Positions 10,292 to 24,887 of a stretch of 24,887 nucleotides of DNA are shown here, one piece after another; within the stretch, counting starts at the first letter, position 1, and each line of letters starts with the position of its first letter. This DNA comes from a virus. The notes beneath the pieces were generated by a model. That model had not been told where the DNA came from. It did not search any database and was given only the letters and a program-made list of their open reading frames with translations. The translations under genes were made by a program, and so were the position numbers. Where the stretch lies: the IMG/VR virus record IMGVR_UViG_3300020474_000103, positions 1 through 24,887 of that record; one strand, 5' to 3'.

Positions 10292-10924
10292 ATGAAACAA
10301 CTATTAATTGATACAATGTTATTTGAAGTAACTCCTACTATGTTAAAAGAGTCTAAGGACAAATATGGTAGATTTATGGTAAAGGGTGTTTTACAAAGAG
10401 CAAACGCTAAAAACCAAAATGGTAGAGTATACCCAAAGGATATTCTAAAAAGAGAAGTTACCAAGTACATGGGTAGAGAAGTAAAAGAGAATAGAGCATA
10501 TGGTGAACTTGACCACCCTGAATCATCAGTTGTTGAATTGAAAAATACATCTCATATCGTAAGAGATGTTTATTGGAGAGGTGATGATGTTATGGGTACA
10601 GTTGAAATCCTTAACACTCCAACAGGAAAAATATTACAAGAAATAATAAACGCTAAATGTACAGTTGGTATTTCATCAAGAGGAATGGGTTCTGTAAAAC
10701 AAATCAGTGAAGATGGTACAGTAGCAGTAGAACAAGACTTTGAATTGATTTGTTGGGACTTTGTATCTAACCCATCAACACATGGAGCATTTATGTCACC
10801 AAGGAATGAAGGTGTAATAAATGAAGGGATTAGCAAAAAACAAGATACTTATAGATATAATAAAGCACAAAACATTATGAGAGATATTATCTGCGAAGTT
10901 GGTGGATATTGTGAATGTTTTTAG
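10292..10924 (+). CDS. gp21: Prohead core protease, gp21-like
   Basis: Serine protease that matures the prohead by cutting scaffold, capsid and internal proteins. Family marks are RANAKNQNGRVYPKDIL, the catalytic His in GELDHPESS (H75) and the catalytic Ser in VGISSRGMGS (S128/S129), then DFELICWDFVSNPSTHGAFM. Length (210 aa) is close to T4 gp21. GVINE178|G near the C-terminus matches its own cleavage consensus and is probably a self-processing site, as known for T4 gp21. The ATG immediately follows the TAG of the 49-aa gene, so the two are likely coupled. The many xNE|(A/G/S) sites elsewhere in this window are the predicted substrates. Assignment is secure. Confidence 0.93.
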   Translation: MKQLLIDTMLFEVTPTMLKESKDKYGRFMVKGVLQRANAKNQNGRVYPKDILKREVTKYMGREVKENRAYGELDHPESSVVELKNTSHIVRDVYWRGDDVMGTVEILNTPTGKILQEIINAKCTVGISSRGMGSVKQISEDGTVAVEQDFELICWDFVSNPSTHGAFMSPRNEGVINEGISKKQDTYRYNKAQNIMRDIICEVGGYCECF

Positions 10925-12022: not shown

Positions 12023-12271
12023 ATGTCAAAAAGATTCAAAAAAGTAAGAAGAGAGGCCATGATTGTACCTGGCCGTTTTAGAGCAGCAAAAGTGGTGAAT
12101 GGAAATATCGAAGCAGCACTTAGATTTTTTAAAAGACAAATGAAAGATTCAGATGTTTTACAAGAAGTTAGAGATAGACAAGAGTTCATAAAACCCTCAG
12201 CTGTAAAAAGAAGACAAAAACAACAAGCAATCAGAAAAGAATACATTAGACGGTTAAGAGAAGAAAATTAA
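12023..12271 (+). CDS. rpsU: Phage-encoded small ribosomal subunit protein bS21
   Basis: Residues 25-82 match bS21: NIEAALRFFKRQMKDSDVLQ, then EVRDRQEFIKPSAVKRRQKQ and a basic C-terminal helix (AIRKEYIRRLREE). The RQ-F-KPS step and the Tyr near the C-terminus are like the Bacteroidota form. An N-terminal extension of about 22 basic residues precedes the usual start; an internal ATG at 12059 is an alternative start. bS21 sits beside the anti-Shine-Dalgarno end of 16S rRNA, and phage copies are known from marine and other phages. It lies between internal head proteins and the scaffold, so it is expected late. It lacks an evident Shine-Dalgarno sequence, although many neighbouring phage genes have strong ones. 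Swapping onto host ribosomes to favour late phage messages is inference. Confidence 0.9.
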   Translation: MSKRFKKVRREAMIVPGRFRAAKVVNGNIEAALRFFKRQMKDSDVLQEVRDRQEFIKPSAVKRRQKQQAIRKEYIRRLREEN

Positions 12272-12424: not shown

Positions 12425-13639
12425 ATGGCTAAATCTGATTTATTAAAAGAGGCTATCGCTGACGCAAAAGCAGTAAAAGAAACTGCATTAGCAAACGCAA
12501 AGATGGCTTTAGAAGAAGCCTTCACTCCAAAACTTCAATCAATGTTATCTCATAAGATTGCAGAAGAATTAGAAGAAGAAGATGAAATGTCTGAAGAAGA
12601 GGAAAACTCAAATGAAACGTATGAAACGTATCATAACGAAGAGGAAGAATCTAATGAAGATATGAAATCTGAAGAAGAAGATTCTGTATCTGAAGAAGAT
12701 GAAATGAAATCTGAAGAAGATGAAATGAAGTCTGAAGAAGACGAAATGAAATCTGAAGAAGACGAAATGAAATCTGAAGAAGATGAAATGAAATCTGAAG
12801 AGGAAGAAGTAGAAGAAGAATTAGATTCAGAAGAGGAAGACAAAGTAAAAGACATCGTAGACGATGAAATGGATTCTCACGAAGACGAAATGCATGACGA
12901 AGAAAAAGAAGAAGGTCCTGCAGACGAAAACGTAGAAGAAAATGAACTCGAAGAAGATGAACTTGACTTAGAATCTGTAATCGCTGAATTAGAAGCTTCA
13001 CTTACTGAAGAAGAAGACGTTGATGAAAATGAAGTTGACGAGGAAGAAGAAGTAAAAGAAGAATTAGACTCATCTGATATTGGTGATGGCGAAAACGCTG
13101 AACCATCTGATGACGCAGCCGATTCATCTGACATTGAAAACGATGACGAGTTAAACATTGATGAAATCATTGAAACTCTAAAAGAAATGGCAGACGATAA
13201 GGTTGAAGAAGAAGAATCAGAAGAAGAAGAAGTATCTGAAGAAGATATGAAGGATGAAGAAATGGACCCAAACAAGAACGAAGAAGAGTTGGAAGAAGCT
13301 TACAAGACTATCGAGTCTTTAAGAAACACTATCAACGAAGTTAACTTGTTAAACGCGAAATTACTTTATACTAATAAATTATTCAGAACTTTTGACTTGA
13401 ACGAGTCACAAAAAGTAAAAGTTATCGAGAATTTTGATAGAGCAGGAAACTTAAGAGAAGTTAAACTTGTATTTGCTACATTAGGTGAAAACTTAAACGT
13501 TGCAAGAAAAAAGAAAACTGTGGTTAAAGAAGGAAGTGCTTCAAAACCAACTAAGAGTTCGGCTCCAAAAAAATCAATAATCTCAGAAGGTAACGAGGTT
13601 GCTGACAGATTTAAGAAGTTAGCAGGTTTAATAAAATAA
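12425..13639 (+). CDS. gp22: Prohead scaffold (core) protein, gp22-like
   Basis: Forms the internal core on which the prohead shell is built and is then degraded by the protease. Identification rests on position directly before the capsid gene, extreme Glu/Asp content, a helical N-terminus (DLLKEAIADAKAVKETALAN), and a C-terminal helix region (TIESLRNTINEVNLLNAKLL, residues 290-320) ending in RFKKLAGLIK. Residues 89-123 are five exact SEEDEMK heptads. Sites VVKE369|G and IISE388|G fit the protease consensus and would release the basic C-terminal peptides. Length 404 aa exceeds T4 gp22 (269 aa), the extra being the acidic middle. A strong AAGGAG site and three leader hairpins precede it. Confidence 0.85.
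   Translation: MAKSDLLKEAIADAKAVKETALANAKMALEEAFTPKLQSMLSHKIAEELEEEDEMSEEEENSNETYETYHNEEEESNEDMKSEEEDSVSEEDEMKSEEDEMKSEEDEMKSEEDEMKSEEDEMKSEEEEVEEELDSEEEDKVKDIVDDEMDSHEDEMHDEEKEEGPADENVEENELEEDELDLESVIAELEASLTEEEDVDENEVDEEEEVKEELDSSDIGDGENAEPSDDAADSSDIENDDELNIDEIIETLKEMADDKVEEEESEEEEVSEEDMKDEEMDPNKNEEELEEAYKTIESLRNTINEVNLLNAKLLYTNKLFRTFDLNESQKVKVIENFDRAGNLREVKLVFATLGENLNVARKKKTVVKEGSASKPTKSSAPKKSIISEGNEVADRFKKLAGLIK
12689..12793 (+). repeat. Tandem 21-bp repeats encoding SEEDEMK x5
   Basis: Five in-frame copies of a 21-bp unit (tct gaa gaa gat gaa atg aaa with synonymous changes gac/gat and aag/aaa), preceded and followed by decayed copies (SEEEDSV, SEEEEVE). The synonymous differences show the copies are not all fresh, but the peptide is kept identical. 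Copy number is likely to vary between related phages. Confidence 0.85.
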
Positions 13640-16160: not shown

Positions 16161-19100
16161 ATGTCATTTGACTACACAGGTTCATTTAGTGGTTCGTTCA
16201 CAGGTAATTTAATATCAACAAATGGGGTAATATCTTCCTCGGCTCAATTGCCAAGTGGGATTTTATCATCATCTGTACAATTACCGAGTGGAATAGTGTC
16301 CTCATCAGGACAAATAAACTATAATACTATTAGTAATAAACCAACTACTATATCTGCATTCCAAAAAAACTCCATAACCGCAAATAACGCATTTAGACAA
16401 ACAACATTTCCATCCGTATCATCATCAATTGGTACAAGATTAACTACTTTAGAAGGTGCAACAGACAATACAGGGTCAGAACAGACACTATCATTTAATG
16501 ATGGTACAAACGCACTAAGTATTTCAAATGGAAATACAGTAGATTTATCAACACTTGCAGGTGGCGGTGGTGGTGGAGCAGGATTAAACATAACAGCATC
16601 AGATGAAGGAACTCCATTAAGTAAAATAGTTCGTAGTTTTGACTTTGTAGGTAACGCAGTTACAGCAACTAACGCAGGTAACGCAGTTACGGTAACAGTA
16701 AATACAGGTTCACTACAATTACCAAGTGGATTAATCTCATCTTCAGCACAATTAGGAAGTATTTCATCATCAGCACAGATAGCAGATGATATATCAGGTT
16801 CATTATCAGCAAATGCGATTGTAGGTTTAGGAGCAGGGATTGTTTCAAGTTCAAATCAAATATTACCAATAGTAACTTCAAGTATTACTGACTTCCCAAC
16901 GGAAGTTTCAAGGTCAGCAGCATCGTTTGGATTTGGAACAGGTGGTGGTTCAACTGACATAACAGCATTAAATAATTTTACGGGTTCTGCAAACACAAGT
17001 ATTACGGCACTAAACACATTTACGGGTTCTGCGATTTCAAACAATCAAACTTCGTCAATGACAGTAGCAACTGCATCATACGCACTATTCGCAGTGTCCG
17101 CGTCTCATGAAATTACAACAGAAGTTAGTTCATCTCACTCAATAAACGCAGATACAGCATCATTTGTGATAGGTCATGTACAAACTTCCCAAACAAGTTC
17201 AATGTCTGTAGCAACTTCATCGTTTACAACAGGATTTTCAATTTTTAACGGAAATAGAGTAATATCTAACACAAGTCTACCTGTAGGAGTTTACAATACT
17301 AACGCAGGAACAAGTGGTTCGTTAACACAATTTATAGAAAAGGTATTTTTCCCAAATACAGTACCATCAATCACAACAAATGGATTTACAATCGGTGAAT
17401 TCGTAGCAAGTGGTTCTGAAATCGGAACAGCAACAGCAACAGACGCAGAAGGACAAAGTATTACATTCCAAGCAGCAAGTTCTTACTCAGATAACTTCTT
17501 TAAGATAGCAAGTAATGGAAAAATAACTCTAAATACTAAATCAACATCATCAATGAACACTGATAATACGCCAGGTAGTGGTTCTCACGCATTTCCTATA
17601 GAAGCCGTAGATACATTCGCAGGTGTTGGTTCTAAAACAATATACATAAGGGTAACTCCTAATACCGCTCCTAAATGGAGACAAACATCAGTAGGTGGTT
17701 CAATAGTGACAACGTTTACACAATCACTAAATGAAAATTCTGTAGCAGCGAATAATAAAGTTAGAGTTTATTTCACTGACGCAGAAAGTGACACTATAAC
17801 AATTGGAAGTGGTTCAGCATTTGTAAGTTCAAGTTTTTCATTTACTAAAGCAAGTACATATGTTCAACTAAATCAGATAACTTCTTCATTAGATTATGAA
17901 GTTACCCCAAAATATGAATTCGTTTTAACAGCAAGTGATGAACATTATGGAAGTGGTGATGATACTGAATCAATTACTTACTTACCATTCCAAGTAGCAG
18001 TAGTTGATAACGTTGGTCCAACTGTAAATGACCAAACATTAGGAAGTATCAATGAAAATACGACAGATGGTGCAAGTGTAGGTTCAATAACTGCAACAGA
18101 CCCAACAGGTGATACAATAACATTTAGTAATTTTACACTAAAAGAAGCAAATTTAGATGGTGGTTCAAATATTACATCATCTTTAGGTGGTAATTCATTA
18201 TATGACCCACACTCAGACCCATTCCAATGTAGTTCTGCAGGTGCAGTAACAAGAAAGAATGGAGTTTATCTAAATTCTGATGTAGCAAATAGATATTTTT
18301 ATCAAGTAACAGTAAAAGACGCATTTAACTCAACATCTGATACAGGTTTAATTAGAATTAACATCGATGATGACGCCGCAACTTCAATAACTGACAATTG
18401 GGATAATTTATATATCATAGAATCCGCAACAAGTAGTGCAGAAATAAAAATTAGTTCAAATGGTAGAACAGGAACAAGTGCATTATGGTCATCAGGAGTA
18501 TCTCAAAGATGGGAAGTTAAATCAACAGGAAATTTAATTTCATTATCATCTACAACAGGTTCAAGTGCAACTTTAAGATTAGCAAGTAACCTAAGTGGTT
18601 CAGCATATACAAGTGGAAGTACAATTTCAGTAGAATTAACCGCATCAGAAAATGGATTTGAAACAACTAAACAATTTGTAAATCAAGATATAGCAGTTGT
18701 TATTAATAACGCACCTGTACCAAGTTTCAGTAACACATCTGCAAACTTAAATACAAATGGTGCAAGAAGTGGTAGTACAATTACAACAATATCTTTTACA
18801 GATACAGAAAGTGATTCACTAAATCATGGTTCATTTACATTTACAGACCCAAGTGGTCAATTAAACGCATATAAATCTGGCGATACTTACTTAGTACAAC
18901 CAAAAAATAATTTAAGTGGTTCCGCTTATCCAATGACCGCATCTATAAAAGATACTCATGGATTTAGAGTAGGTACTACTAAACATAGTGTAACAATCGC
19001 ATCAGCACCAAATGGTACTTTAACTACAAATGGTACATTTAGAATAATAGAGAGTGCAGAAAGTGGAGCACATATAAAAATTAACGCTGATGGTAGAACG

Positions 19101-20198
19101 GGAACACAAGGTGACTTAGGAGTTACTTACTCACCTCAATATAATTCCGCAGCAGTACAAGCATTTACTTCATCTAACGCAGCCATAGCAGTAAACAGTA
19201 ATGGTAAACTAACAATAGGTGTAAATATAAGTGGTTCAAGTACAGGTAGTGGTGATACAATTACATCAACTATATCATATCAAGACCAATTTAATAATAT
19301 AGGTTCAGACAGTATATCAGTAAGTGTAGTTGCAAATCAAGCTCCAACAGCAACATTTAGTGAGATTGGTGCAAACATGACTGCGTCGATTTCAAGTGGA
19401 ACAGGATTAGTAAGTATGTCAATATCTGATACAGAATCCGATACACCGTTTTCCGCTTCATTTGGTGGACCAAACGCAGGAAACTTACAATTTGTACCAC
19501 AAAACGCAAATTCATCGTCATACGTCATTAAAACAACGGGTACGATAAGTTCGGGTGTAACATATAGTTATACAGCATCAGTACACGATAACTTTGACAA
19601 ATCAACATCATACAAAAGAACAATAACACTTCTTGACCCTGTAGCAAAAACATATGTTTACGGTTGGGATGGTGGTTCTGCAGCAAGTGAAGCAACAGCA
19701 ATAGCATCTATGGGTGATAGTGGAGCAGATGGTGTTGATATCGAAGCAGGTTCAGTAATTGCAAAACTACAAAGTGGTTCACTTGGTACAACATTCAGTC
19801 CAACATATGTTGGTGGTACAATGTTACTATTTGGAAGTAGTTCAAAAACAACATTATCAGATAGTAACGCAACAGGACTATCAAGTTTCGGATATATAAA
19901 CTTTAGTAGTGGTGGTTCAAAAAGATTAGTCGTAGTATTCCCATCAGCATCAAATCAGTTTGGGAAACCAAGAAGTATGTATGATGGAGTACCACCTGAT
20001 GGAACAGGTACAGAAAAAGAATACTATGTATATGCAAAAGACGCCTCAATTCCTGGCACAATTGGAACGGGTGTATATTACTTCGACACTGAAAATGCAG
20101 TAGAAGGATATTCAAGATGGGGTATAATATTTGCAGAAGGTGAAAATACAAATAACTCAAGATATTATTTAATGCCTGACTCGGCGTCAGCACCATAA
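16161..20198 (+). CDS. Long adhesin/tail-fibre protein with cadherin-like repeats, 1345 aa
   Basis: The first 420 residues are Ser/Thr/Gly-rich with short repeats (SSSAQLPSGI-type, three copies within residues 23-55, and more later), the style of marine phage fibres. From about residue 400 to 1160 the protein is a chain of cadherin-like/immunoglobulin-like beta domains. Calcium-site-like steps recur: TATDAEGQSITF, YFTDAESDTITI, ITATDPTGDTITF, SFTDTESDSLNHG, SISDTESDTPFSA. A distinct C-terminal domain of about 180 residues (from TYVYGWDGG) ends in SRYYLMPDSASAP and may be the tip. Two further segments share the IIESAxSxAxIKI pattern, marking repeated domains. It opens the fibre unit, and its 16963-17070 stretch shares a module with the next gene. 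Host-surface adhesion is the likely role; virion position is unknown. Confidence 0.75.
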   Translation: MSFDYTGSFSGSFTGNLISTNGVISSSAQLPSGILSSSVQLPSGIVSSSGQINYNTISNKPTTISAFQKNSITANNAFRQTTFPSVSSSIGTRLTTLEGATDNTGSEQTLSFNDGTNALSISNGNTVDLSTLAGGGGGGAGLNITASDEGTPLSKIVRSFDFVGNAVTATNAGNAVTVTVNTGSLQLPSGLISSSAQLGSISSSAQIADDISGSLSANAIVGLGAGIVSSSNQILPIVTSSITDFPTEVSRSAASFGFGTGGGSTDITALNNFTGSANTSITALNTFTGSAISNNQTSSMTVATASYALFAVSASHEITTEVSSSHSINADTASFVIGHVQTSQTSSMSVATSSFTTGFSIFNGNRVISNTSLPVGVYNTNAGTSGSLTQFIEKVFFPNTVPSITTNGFTIGEFVASGSEIGTATATDAEGQSITFQAASSYSDNFFKIASNGKITLNTKSTSSMNTDNTPGSGSHAFPIEAVDTFAGVGSKTIYIRVTPNTAPKWRQTSVGGSIVTTFTQSLNENSVAANNKVRVYFTDAESDTITIGSGSAFVSSSFSFTKASTYVQLNQITSSLDYEVTPKYEFVLTASDEHYGSGDDTESITYLPFQVAVVDNVGPTVNDQTLGSINENTTDGASVGSITATDPTGDTITFSNFTLKEANLDGGSNITSSLGGNSLYDPHSDPFQCSSAGAVTRKNGVYLNSDVANRYFYQVTVKDAFNSTSDTGLIRINIDDDAATSITDNWDNLYIIESATSSAEIKISSNGRTGTSALWSSGVSQRWEVKSTGNLISLSSTTGSSATLRLASNLSGSAYTSGSTISVELTASENGFETTKQFVNQDIAVVINNAPVPSFSNTSANLNTNGARSGSTITTISFTDTESDSLNHGSFTFTDPSGQLNAYKSGDTYLVQPKNNLSGSAYPMTASIKDTHGFRVGTTKHSVTIASAPNGTLTTNGTFRIIESAESGAHIKINADGRTGTQGDLGVTYSPQYNSAAVQAFTSSNAAIAVNSNGKLTIGVNISGSSTGSGDTITSTISYQDQFNNIGSDSISVSVVANQAPTATFSEIGANMTASISSGTGLVSMSISDTESDTPFSASFGGPNAGNLQFVPQNANSSSYVIKTTGTISSGVTYSYTASVHDNFDKSTSYKRTITLLDPVAKTYVYGWDGGSAASEATAIASMGDSGADGVDIEAGSVIAKLQSGSLGTTFSPTYVGGTMLLFGSSSKTTLSDSNATGLSSFGYINFSSGGSKRLVVVFPSASNQFGKPRSMYDGVPPDGTGTEKEYYVYAKDASIPGTIGTGVYYFDTENAVEGYSRWGIIFAEGENTNNSRYYLMPDSASAP

Positions 20199-20216: not shown

Positions 20217-21293
20217 ATGGCAACAACAGCAGGTGATATTTATGTAAGAAGTGGAGCGTCAGGTTCATTCACGTCAGTACAATATGTACAAGGTGGGTGG
20301 ATTACTGTAGCATCAGCATCAGACATGAACTCTATTTATCACGATAGACTTAGAGACGGACAGATTGTTTGGGTAGAACATACTGAACAATTATATGTTA
20401 CAAGAAAGTTTATCGCATTCTCTACGCCAGGATATGGTGGTTCAGATGACTCTGCTTCATTCCATACTACTACCTTAGGTATTTCAGGTGGTGGTGGAGC
20501 TGGTGATATTACATCAGTAACAGCAGGAACAGGTTTAAGTGGTGGTGGGGCATCAGGAGCAGTAACACTTAACTTAAATACATCAGACGCAGCATTTATA
20601 TCAGGTGTAAGTGGTCAATTGACATCATTAAATAATTTTACAGGTTCAGCAAATACAAGTATTACATCATTGAATACTTTTACGGGTTCTGTAATTACAA
20701 ACAGTATAACAAGTTCTATGACTGTAGCAAGTTCTTCTGTATCAGATAGAGCGATGTTTACAGCACAATGGACATTAGGTGCAGATGGTTCCAATCATTA
20801 TACATTTACAGGTCATGGTTTAACAGGAGCAGAAAATGACCCAACACTTTATTTAATGAGAGGTCAAAAATATAAATTTATAAATAATATGGGAGCACAT
20901 CCATTTAGGATTCAATCAACTCCAAATGGTTCAGCAGGTACAGCATATAATGATGGTGTAACAAATAATAACGTTTCAAGTGGAACATTAACTTGGGATG
21001 TACAATTTGACGCACCAAGAGTTTTATATTATCAATGTACTTCTCACGCAAATATGGGTGGTGTTATTTATGTACTAAACGCTGATACAGGTTCTGGCGG
21101 TAGTGGAACAGGTGGTATATTTACAACTACAGGTTCTTTCAAATCAACTACGAACAGTTTAGATATAACAGGTTCGGTTAGAGTCGGTGACGGTGTTTTA
21201 AGATTAAAAGAATTTTCAACTACTCCAACTTATGAAGAAGGTGCAATATTTTATTCAGCATCAAACTTCTACTTTGGGTTAGGAAGTAGTTAA
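20217..21293 (+). CDS. Fibre-type protein with cupredoxin-like domain, 358 aa
   Basis: The N-terminal 100 residues (GDIYVRSGASGSFTSVQYVQ) resemble a virion-attachment part. Residues 115-180 are a Gly/Ser/Thr fibre stretch with NFTGSANTSIT repeats shared with the preceding gene. Residues 185-290 look like a cupredoxin: YTFTGHGLTG, a GAHPFRI step with H228, and YYQCTSHANMGGVIYV with C274, H277 and M280. Together these give the His/Cys/His/Met ligand set of a type-1 copper site with the C-x2-H-x2-M spacing of amicyanin. The C-terminal 60 residues are another beta-rich fibre piece. It follows the long fibre gene by 18 bases behind a purine-rich ribosome site. A virion structural role is inferred; copper binding is predicted only. 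Confidence 0.72.
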   Translation: MATTAGDIYVRSGASGSFTSVQYVQGGWITVASASDMNSIYHDRLRDGQIVWVEHTEQLYVTRKFIAFSTPGYGGSDDSASFHTTTLGISGGGGAGDITSVTAGTGLSGGGASGAVTLNLNTSDAAFISGVSGQLTSLNNFTGSANTSITSLNTFTGSVITNSITSSMTVASSSVSDRAMFTAQWTLGADGSNHYTFTGHGLTGAENDPTLYLMRGQKYKFINNMGAHPFRIQSTPNGSAGTAYNDGVTNNNVSSGTLTWDVQFDAPRVLYYQCTSHANMGGVIYVLNADTGSGGSGTGGIFTTTGSFKSTTNSLDITGSVRVGDGVLRLKEFSTTPTYEEGAIFYSASNFYFGLGSS

Positions 21294-23650: not shown

Positions 23651-24283
23651 ATGCCAAATTGGAAAAAACTAATAACATCAGGCAGTAACGCCGTACTGAA
23701 CGATATCACCGCATCAGGTGAAATACTTATACCACAATATGTTGAACATTTAGATGATACAGATACTAAATTAGGATTTAGTGCAGCTAATACTGTTGTA
23801 CTTGTAACAGGTGGGTCAACAAGATTAAAAGCAACTAATAGTGGTGTTGAAATTACAGGTACACTTGACGCAACAAAAGAAAAACAAATAATACATACAA
23901 ATGGTGAAGTAGTAAAAGAAGGTATACTTACCGCATATGTTCCATTTGCAAATATAAACATAATGGATACTGATGTTCAAACGGGTTATTGGCAATATGT
24001 TGCTCCCGTAGATGGATATGTAGAAAAAGTAATTGTAAGTCCACATCAAGCAGCAACAAGTGGTACTGTTGGATTACAATGGAAAAATCAAAGTGGTAAT
24101 ATTTCAACCGAAGTAGATGGAACAATATCAGCAACCGCAGGTGTTCCAACAACCTATACTTTTGGTTCATCATATGGTTTTAGTGGTGATGATAGATTAA
24201 ACTTATTAGTAGATAGAGGTGCATCCGCAAGGTCAAGGGGATTTGGTTTTACGATAATATTAAGACTTGATTTTGTTAGTTAA
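23651..24283 (+). CDS. Short fibre/tail protein, 210 aa
   Basis: The start MPNWKKLITSGSNAVLNDIT matches the pattern W-KK-I-SGS-A-L of the 576-aa fibre, suggesting the same attachment point on the virion. Residues 30-80 are beta-rich (KLGFSAANTVVLVTGGSTRL), and residues 95-210 form a beta-sandwich-like domain (YWQYVAPVDGYVEKVIVSPH; then GFSGDDRLNLLVDRGASARS) ending in ILRLDFVS. This looks like a short fibre or tip protein. Its TAA is followed, in the same frame after only nine bases, by the ATG of the Hint-collagen gene. The two genes could therefore derive from one ORF. Function is inferred from the shared N-terminus and setting. Confidence 0.65.
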   Translation: MPNWKKLITSGSNAVLNDITASGEILIPQYVEHLDDTDTKLGFSAANTVVLVTGGSTRLKATNSGVEITGTLDATKEKQIIHTNGEVVKEGILTAYVPFANINIMDTDVQTGYWQYVAPVDGYVEKVIVSPHQAATSGTVGLQWKNQSGNISTEVDGTISATAGVPTTYTFGSSYGFSGDDRLNLLVDRGASARSRGFGFTIILRLDFVS

Positions 24284-24292
24284 GGGGTTATT

Positions 24293-24887
24293 ATGGAATT
24301 AATACACGGATTACATAAAGATACCTTACTTGAAATCAACGGTAAACTTACTCCAATAAGTAATATATCGATTGGTGACAAAGTTAAAGGTTATGATGTA
24401 GAAAATGGTATCTACAGAGACAACAAGGTTGTTAGAGTAGCAACTGAAGAGATACAATCATACTTAAAACTTAAACTTTCAAACGGAACTGAATTAAAAA
24501 CTTCCGTTGATATAAAAATATTTAAAGATGGTGAATGGGTTTCACCAATCGGTAATACATCATGCGCATCTGACGATTGTAAATGTTCTCATAAATCATT
24601 TTTCAATGATATAAAAGTTATTTCCGTAGAATTAGTAGAAGAACCTATAGTAATTAGGAGTATAGAGGTAGAACCTGACCATAATTACTTTGTAGGTGAT
24701 TTATTAGTACATAACACGGGTCCACAGGGACCAAAAGGTCAAAAAGGACAAAAAGGAACAACAGGTCCCCAAGGTCCTACAGGTCCTCAAGGAGCACAAG
24801 GTCCTCAAGGTGCACAAGGTGGTGGTGGTGGTCAAGGTCCTACAGGAGCACAAGGTGCAAAAGGTTCATTAGGTCCAACAGGTCCTC
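24293..24887 (+). CDS. Hint (intein-like) domain joined to collagen-like fibre, 3' end beyond window
   Basis: Residues 1-141 fit a Hint fold. The N-terminal block is GLHKDTLLEINGKLTPISNI then SIGDKVKGYD, a B-like block is LSNGTELKTSVDIKIF, and the C-terminal block EPDHNYFVGDLLVHN141|T142 is intact. The usual Cys1 is Gly6 and the block-B His is Asp73, so full splicing is not expected; Asn141 cyclisation could still cut before Thr142. C91, C96, C98 and H100 form a possible metal knuckle inside the domain. From Thr142 the protein is Gly-X-Y collagen-like (GPQGPKGQKGQKGTTGPQGP onward) to the window edge. AAGGGG lies six bases before the ATG. The gene is incomplete. Self-cleavage is predicted, not shown. 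Confidence 0.75.
   Translation, partial: MELIHGLHKDTLLEINGKLTPISNISIGDKVKGYDVENGIYRDNKVVRVATEEIQSYLKLKLSNGTELKTSVDIKIFKDGEWVSPIGNTSCASDDCKCSHKSFFNDIKVISVELVEEPIVIRSIEVEPDHNYFVGDLLVHNTGPQGPKGQKGQKGTTGPQGPTGPQGAQGPQGAQGGGGGQGPTGAQGAKGSLGPTGP

Follow-up and report, generated by a model that had tools for sequence, protein, structure and literature searches.

The window, the whole 24,887-nucleotide stretch of IMG/VR record IMGVR_UViG_3300020474_000103 analysed here, comes from a T4-like phage, as it encodes a T4-type terminase, a portal and a gp23-type capsid protein. Among isolated phages, Microcystis phage Mel-JY01 (57%) and Flavobacterium phage immuto (52%) come nearest by capsid protein, and neither contained a Hint match. 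The gene at 10292-10924 occupies, to judge from its position, the place that the prohead protease gene holds in relatives. A phage-encoded homologue of ribosomal protein S21 follows at 12023-12271 (Pfam 2.9e-14), and Mel-JY01 has one in the same neighbourhood. Immediately before the major capsid gene, in a scaffold-like position, 12425-13639 encodes a protein rich in Glu/Asp/Ser with repeated MKSEEDE units. The fibre gene cluster opens with a 1345-residue protein with a cadherin-type match (16161-20198; Pfam 9e-7), next to which 20217-21293 encodes a fibre-like protein with a cupredoxin-like stretch (H...C-x2-H-x2-M, 'YYQCTSHANMGG'); its Pfam Copper-bind match is weak (E 0.078), and it may represent a blue-copper domain on a phage fibre. 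Another fibre-like gene with a weak PHROG tail fibre match lies at 23651..24283 (plus strand); in the related contigs L080, L068 and L062, a gene starting with MP[NS]WKK occupies the same upstream place, which in L050, L055 and L065 is taken by a different gene. The last open reading frame of the window, 24293..>24887 on the plus strand, stays open to the record end, where the contig truncates it, and encodes the Hint-collagen protein considered here.

Only five residues, the lead MELIH (24293..24307; all features of this protein are on the plus strand), precede a Hint domain of 136 residues, which extends from intein position 1 to the terminal Asn (residues 6-141; 24308..24715) as delimited by profile, fold and alignment. 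Its key residues are Gly6 (A:1), Ser71 (B:7), Ile74 (B:10) and Ser123 (F:4), followed on the C-terminal side by His130 (F:13), His140 (G:6) and Asn141 (G:7). The domain ends in VHN, Thr142 comes next, and a collagen-like Gly-X-Y fibre starts at residue 143 and is cut off by the contig end (24716..24887); as originally noted, VHN|T passes straight into the repeats, with Gly at 19/19 expected places. Residues 123-143, SIEVEPDHNYFVGDLLVHN|TG (24659..24721), form a conserved C-terminal block that is the slowest-evolving part of the domain. The putative scissile bond, Asn141-Thr142 (24713..24718), is proposed from its position and from the invariance of H140, N141 and T142. Within the domain, a Cys-rich loop, CASDDCKCSHK (residues 92-102; 24566..24598), is present in only part of the family; it has the pattern C-x4-C-x-C followed by His, three members weakly match a metallothionein model, and the loop is possibly a metal site or a disulfide loop. 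The long Gly-X-Y repeat, the C-terminal tip seen in complete relatives and the location among the tail genes of a tailed phage agree with a collagen-like phage tail fibre.

As a single sequence, residues 1-141 of the window protein matched Hint models only weakly (Pfam Intein_splicing, 2.9e-5, and PT-HINT, 1e-3, both below the curated cut-off; TIGR01443, 0.027; the bacterial intein-like (BIL) structure 2lwy in the PDB, 2.8e-3). A profile of the family gave strong matches to PDB entries, namely Tetrahymena BIL2 (2.4e-9), the gp41-1 intein (4e-7) and the C. thermocellum BIL (4.9e-7). The PT-HINT model was matched in 13 of the 18 members, and the relative L062 exceeded its Pfam cut-off (32.5 versus 27.7 bits). 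AlphaFold2 modelled the window domain as a Hint fold (pLDDT 86.3), with Foldseek E values down to 4.6e-10 against inteins and BILs. VIA-align Z scores were 18.6 for Tetrahymena BUBL1 BIL2, 18.0 for 2lwy and 15.5-15.8 for hedgehog, the inteins and hedgehog together ranging from 15.5 to 18. In the structural superposition, intein residue 1 corresponded to residue 6 of the model, and the terminal Asn to its residue 141. L062, the most divergent relative, was likewise modelled as a Hint domain (pLDDT 82.8, Z 17.4), its first 11 residues being poorly modelled. Profile and model thus agree with the predicted N-terminal Hint-like domain, which had been staked on these two checks, and together they rule out a chance or low-complexity match; as modelled, the N-terminal domain is a true Hint fold. 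A search of a defence-gene library gave zero matches.

To collect relatives, we scanned IMG/VR with the Hint domain, the Hint alignment, the fibre tip and one divergent member. This yielded about two dozen further contigs and, in all, 18 distinct Hint sequences with pairwise identities down to 35%. All share the same layout, an N-terminal Hint domain with collagen at the very next residue, L047 being truncated inside the Hint domain. Complete fibres are 942-1502 amino acids long and end in a C-terminal tip of ∼40 residues. With this tip as bait, in IMG/VR only, 12 of 12 complete ORFs with an intact 5' end began with a Hint domain, so that no Hint-less orthologue was found among complete tip-defined ORFs; many further matches were truncated by contig ends and are uninformative on this point. 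Close relatives of the Hint domain, the tip or the second fibre described below were not found among GenBank phages, and prokaryote genomes returned one terminase intein (L048) only.

The 18 distinct sequences show which parts of the intein active site have been kept. Position A:1, correctly read as Gly in the window, where Gly6 pairs with intein residue 1, is Gly in 11 sequences, Ser in 4 and Ala in 3. Block B was placed by alignment to 2lwy, 6y75 and gp41-1, which pairs T/S-x-x-H with Ser71-Val72-Asp73-Ile74 (24503..24514). The block-B His is indeed lost, as had been claimed; however, the residue at its position is Ile74 and not Asp, Asp73 being the ordinary Asp of B:9. Across the family, B:7 is Ser or Thr, and B:10 is I, L, V, A or S and never His. 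Position F:4 is Ser in 18/18. No sequence departs from His F:13, His G:6, Asn G:7 or Thr+1 (HN|T in 18/18), whereas G:5, adjoining the invariant His-Asn, varies freely (V/I/M/F/L). The expectation that homologues would keep His140-Asn141 while varying position 1 therefore held. Even in the L062/L084 branch, which has lost the block-A Lys-Asp-Thr, SITVEPDHNYFVG[NS]LLVHNTGP is intact. Ile4 (-2) and His5 (-1) of the lead are also invariant.

This conservation is concentrated at the C-terminal end. The last 21 of 143 residues contain 14 of the 27 invariant columns (hypergeometric P 1e-7, a value that ignores shared ancestry), and residues 123-143 evolve at a mean site rate of 0.42, other segments at 0.77-1.49. 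As all four codons are used for Thr142 and both codons for each of His140 and Asn141, selection acts on the protein, and this synonymous variation rules out a DNA-level or recombination origin of the HNTG block. For the invariant I4 and L7 (24302-24313), all 18 sequences use one codon each (ATA and TTA), which sets these two apart from most of the other invariant positions; this may reflect codon bias or a DNA- or RNA-level constraint near the start. In inteins, step 1 at the N-terminal splice site involves the position-1 nucleophile (A:1), Thr B:7 and His B:10, whereas step 3, Asn cyclisation, involves His F:13, His G:6 and Asn G:7 (PMC4031507). Read against these residue roles, the 18-sequence alignment describes a family that lacks the step-1 nucleophile at position 1 and His B:10 and has retained the whole step-3 set.

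Compared with known classes, the domain belongs to the Hint superfamily by its horseshoe beta fold and its profile similarity to Hint and intein families. Of the class 1 features, Cys/Ser1 is missing in the window (Gly or Ala in 14/18 sequences, Ser in 4/18) and so is T-x-x-H, of which the B:7 Ser/Thr is kept; the terminal His-Asn followed by C/S/T is present. Class 2 inteins have Ala1, Ser at G:6, Cys+1 and His B:10 (PMC4031507), and here G:6 is His and +1 is Thr. The Cys at F:4 of class 3 is replaced by the invariant Ser. Because residues needed by each of the three classes are missing, splicing is unlikely, and a full splicing intein is ruled out by A:1, B:10 and F:4. The fold and the terminal HN|T with His F:13 are shared with these inteins, but the fibre Hint domain mostly lacks Cys/Ser1 and entirely lacks His B:10 and Cys F:4, and, sitting at the protein's own N-terminus, it is apparently not inserted in a conserved protein. 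With type A BILs it shares the Hint fold (2lwy, BUBL1 BIL2), the terminal His-Asn and the expectation that cleavage products dominate; it differs from them in lacking Cys1 and in carrying Thr at +1. Type A BILs form their own N-terminal thioester and lack a +1 nucleophile (PMC4031507), and the fibre Hint domain is the reverse.

Overall, these data point to a model, which we consider probable, where the Hint domain serves as a cap capable of cleavage only, from which a collagen fibre starting with Thr is freed, in a set of T4-like phages sampled through metagenomes. The Hint domain at the N-terminus of the tail fibre would have been cut down to one half-reaction. As Cys1 has given way to Gly, Ala or Ser and the block-B His is absent, the N-terminal splice-site machinery is lost, and neither a thioester nor normal splicing would be expected. 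With the aid of His130 (F:13) and His140 (G:6), Asn141 would form a succinimide by cyclisation, which would break the Asn141-Thr142 bond and release a fibre that starts with Thr-Gly-Pro, directly in the triple helix. The cut would most likely take place after synthesis or around trimer assembly, and removal of the cap might help the fibre to fold or to join the particle. Cleavage at the C-terminus can survive in inteins that are blocked by mutation of position 1, and such position-1 mutants serve in the laboratory as C-terminal cleaving tags. Like these mini-inteins, the fibre Hint domain would release the downstream protein one-sidedly; whereas they are engineered, it would be a natural, fixed version. 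Three observations speak against the cap. Position F:4, usually Asp, is Ser in all sequences, and by analogy with the class 2 KlbA intein, where loss of B:10 and F:4 also lowered C-terminal cleavage (PMC4031507), this might weaken the reaction. The invariant His(-1) and Ile(-2) find no explanation in cleavage alone. Finally, His-Asn is kept in a neighbouring paralogous fibre, so that there may be non-catalytic reasons for its conservation.

This second fibre is encoded by the next gene, which starts 13-28 bases after the stop codon of the first; wherever the contig of a relative extends that far, this gene codes for a further long collagen-like protein (L055 6180-10763, L062 6164-11872, L065 6173-11302, L068 6176-9913 and L080 6203-9913). 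In a profile comparison, the first 155-210 residues of this protein aligned along their whole extent with the Hint family of the first fibre (probability 89.5, E 2e-6). In all but one of the 14 aligned sequences, the domain ends in VVHN, IVHN or VIHN, L070 having RN instead, and a cysteine-containing linker separates it from the collagen. Asp replaces His at F:13, and the +1 residue is P, A, V, S, F, D or R, often Pro. A PDB profile search with this domain did not recover Hint structures. Based on the profile comparison, the conserved layout and the conserved HN, we provisionally regard it as a still more decayed Hint domain. The contrast at F:13 and +1 suggests that the first fibre is held to a catalytic standard and the second is not. 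The second fibre also indicates that HN can persist where cleavage is doubtful. For the claim of a C-terminally cleaving cap rather than a splicing intein, this leaves a divided outcome: its conservation prediction came true, but the paralogous fibre weakens what the conserved HN can say.

The main rival to the cap is that the Hint domain is retained as a non-cleaving structural N-terminal domain, acting as an anchor, a chaperone or a register-setter, with its C-terminal block conserved as the rigid junction at which the beta-fold passes into the triple helix. The neighbouring fibre lends weight to this idea, as it starts with a decayed Hint-like domain that mostly keeps HN in front of Pro, Ala, Val, Ser, Phe or Asp; zero Hint-less orthologues among the 12 complete ORFs is what a lasting role would lead one to expect, and the invariance of I4-H5 fits as well. 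However, a structural role leaves unexplained why the Asn-cyclisation residues and Thr+1 are invariant in the first fibre, when F:13 and +1 have changed in the second, and why G:5, right beside the invariant His-Asn, is free to vary. Weighing these points, we regard a purely structural domain as possible but rather unlikely. We give little credence to a variant splicing reaction, in which Thr+1 or the Ser at F:4 attacks the His(-1)-Gly1 bond directly and joins MELIH to the collagen. The invariant Ile(-2)-His(-1), the Ser found in all members at the class 3 position F:4 and the Ser1 of some relatives would suit such a reaction, and a missing block-B His is partly made up for by bulky -1 residues, His included, in an engineered DnaB intein (PMC6333167). 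Yet that compensation still needs a position-1 nucleophile (PMC6333167), and most members have Gly or Ala at that position; moreover, class 2 needs His B:10 and Cys+1, and class 3 needs Cys F:4 (PMC4031507), none of which is present. Least probable of all is that a separate protease, either the phage prohead protease, whose T4-type gene is expected and may lie at 10292-10924 as in relatives, or a host enzyme, cuts off the N-terminal domain at this site or close to it, as T4 protease sites differ and such an enzyme gives no reason for invariant Hint catalytic residues.

Returning to the self-removing cap, the same DnaB result offers a lead, though only a lead, on the lead peptide: by analogy, His5 (-1) may sit in the active site. 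Tentatively, and with less confidence than in the cap itself, we can extend the model to a natural, fixed cleavage-only Hint domain in which the invariant His(-1) has taken over an active-site role, with the sister fibre representing the next stage, where the Hint domain is structural only.

Collagen-like repeats and Hint domains also occur together in virion or tail fibre proteins of Erwinia and Yersinia jumbo phages (Yoloswag gp103, Y3 gp110 and fHe-Yen9-02 333c), one of which carries an intein-domain annotation from its depositors. In these proteins, in contrast to the fibre described here, the Hint domain is C-terminal, Cys1 and T-x-x-H are intact and ∼11 residues follow; the layout is the mirror image of the N-terminal Hint-collagen arrangement, and the sequence similarity between the two kinds of Hint domain is weak. 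Jumbo phage collagen proteins with an intact C-terminal Hint domain (Cys1, T-H-E-H, HN|T or HN|V) and an 11-residue tail are encoded at L023 3705-5138, L093 2672-4114 and L094 1678-3114. A further intact Hint domain lies near the C-terminus of the protein encoded at L113 2371-3486 (Cys1, T-Y-E-H, AHN), with Asp at F:13 as in the second fibre. Hedgehog and PT-HINT proteins resemble the fibre Hint domain in fold and in the PT-HINT matches noted above. Hedgehog cleaves at its N-terminal side, whereas the fibre Hint domain would cut only at its own C-terminal side. In the open-licence PMC literature, we found no paper on an N-terminal Hint domain joined to a collagen or tail fibre.

Splicing, hedgehog-type cleavage and toxin release are the known roles of Hint domains. 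If the cap model is true, the Asn-cyclisation half-reaction alone can be selected, here for the processing of a virion fibre. The family would then be a natural test of which residues are needed for Asn cyclisation without branch formation, and would provide a ready-made N-terminal tag that releases collagen-like proteins without a trace. The tandem fibres, of which the first retains the complete step-3 set and the second has decayed, offer a natural comparison for when a Hint domain stops being an enzyme.
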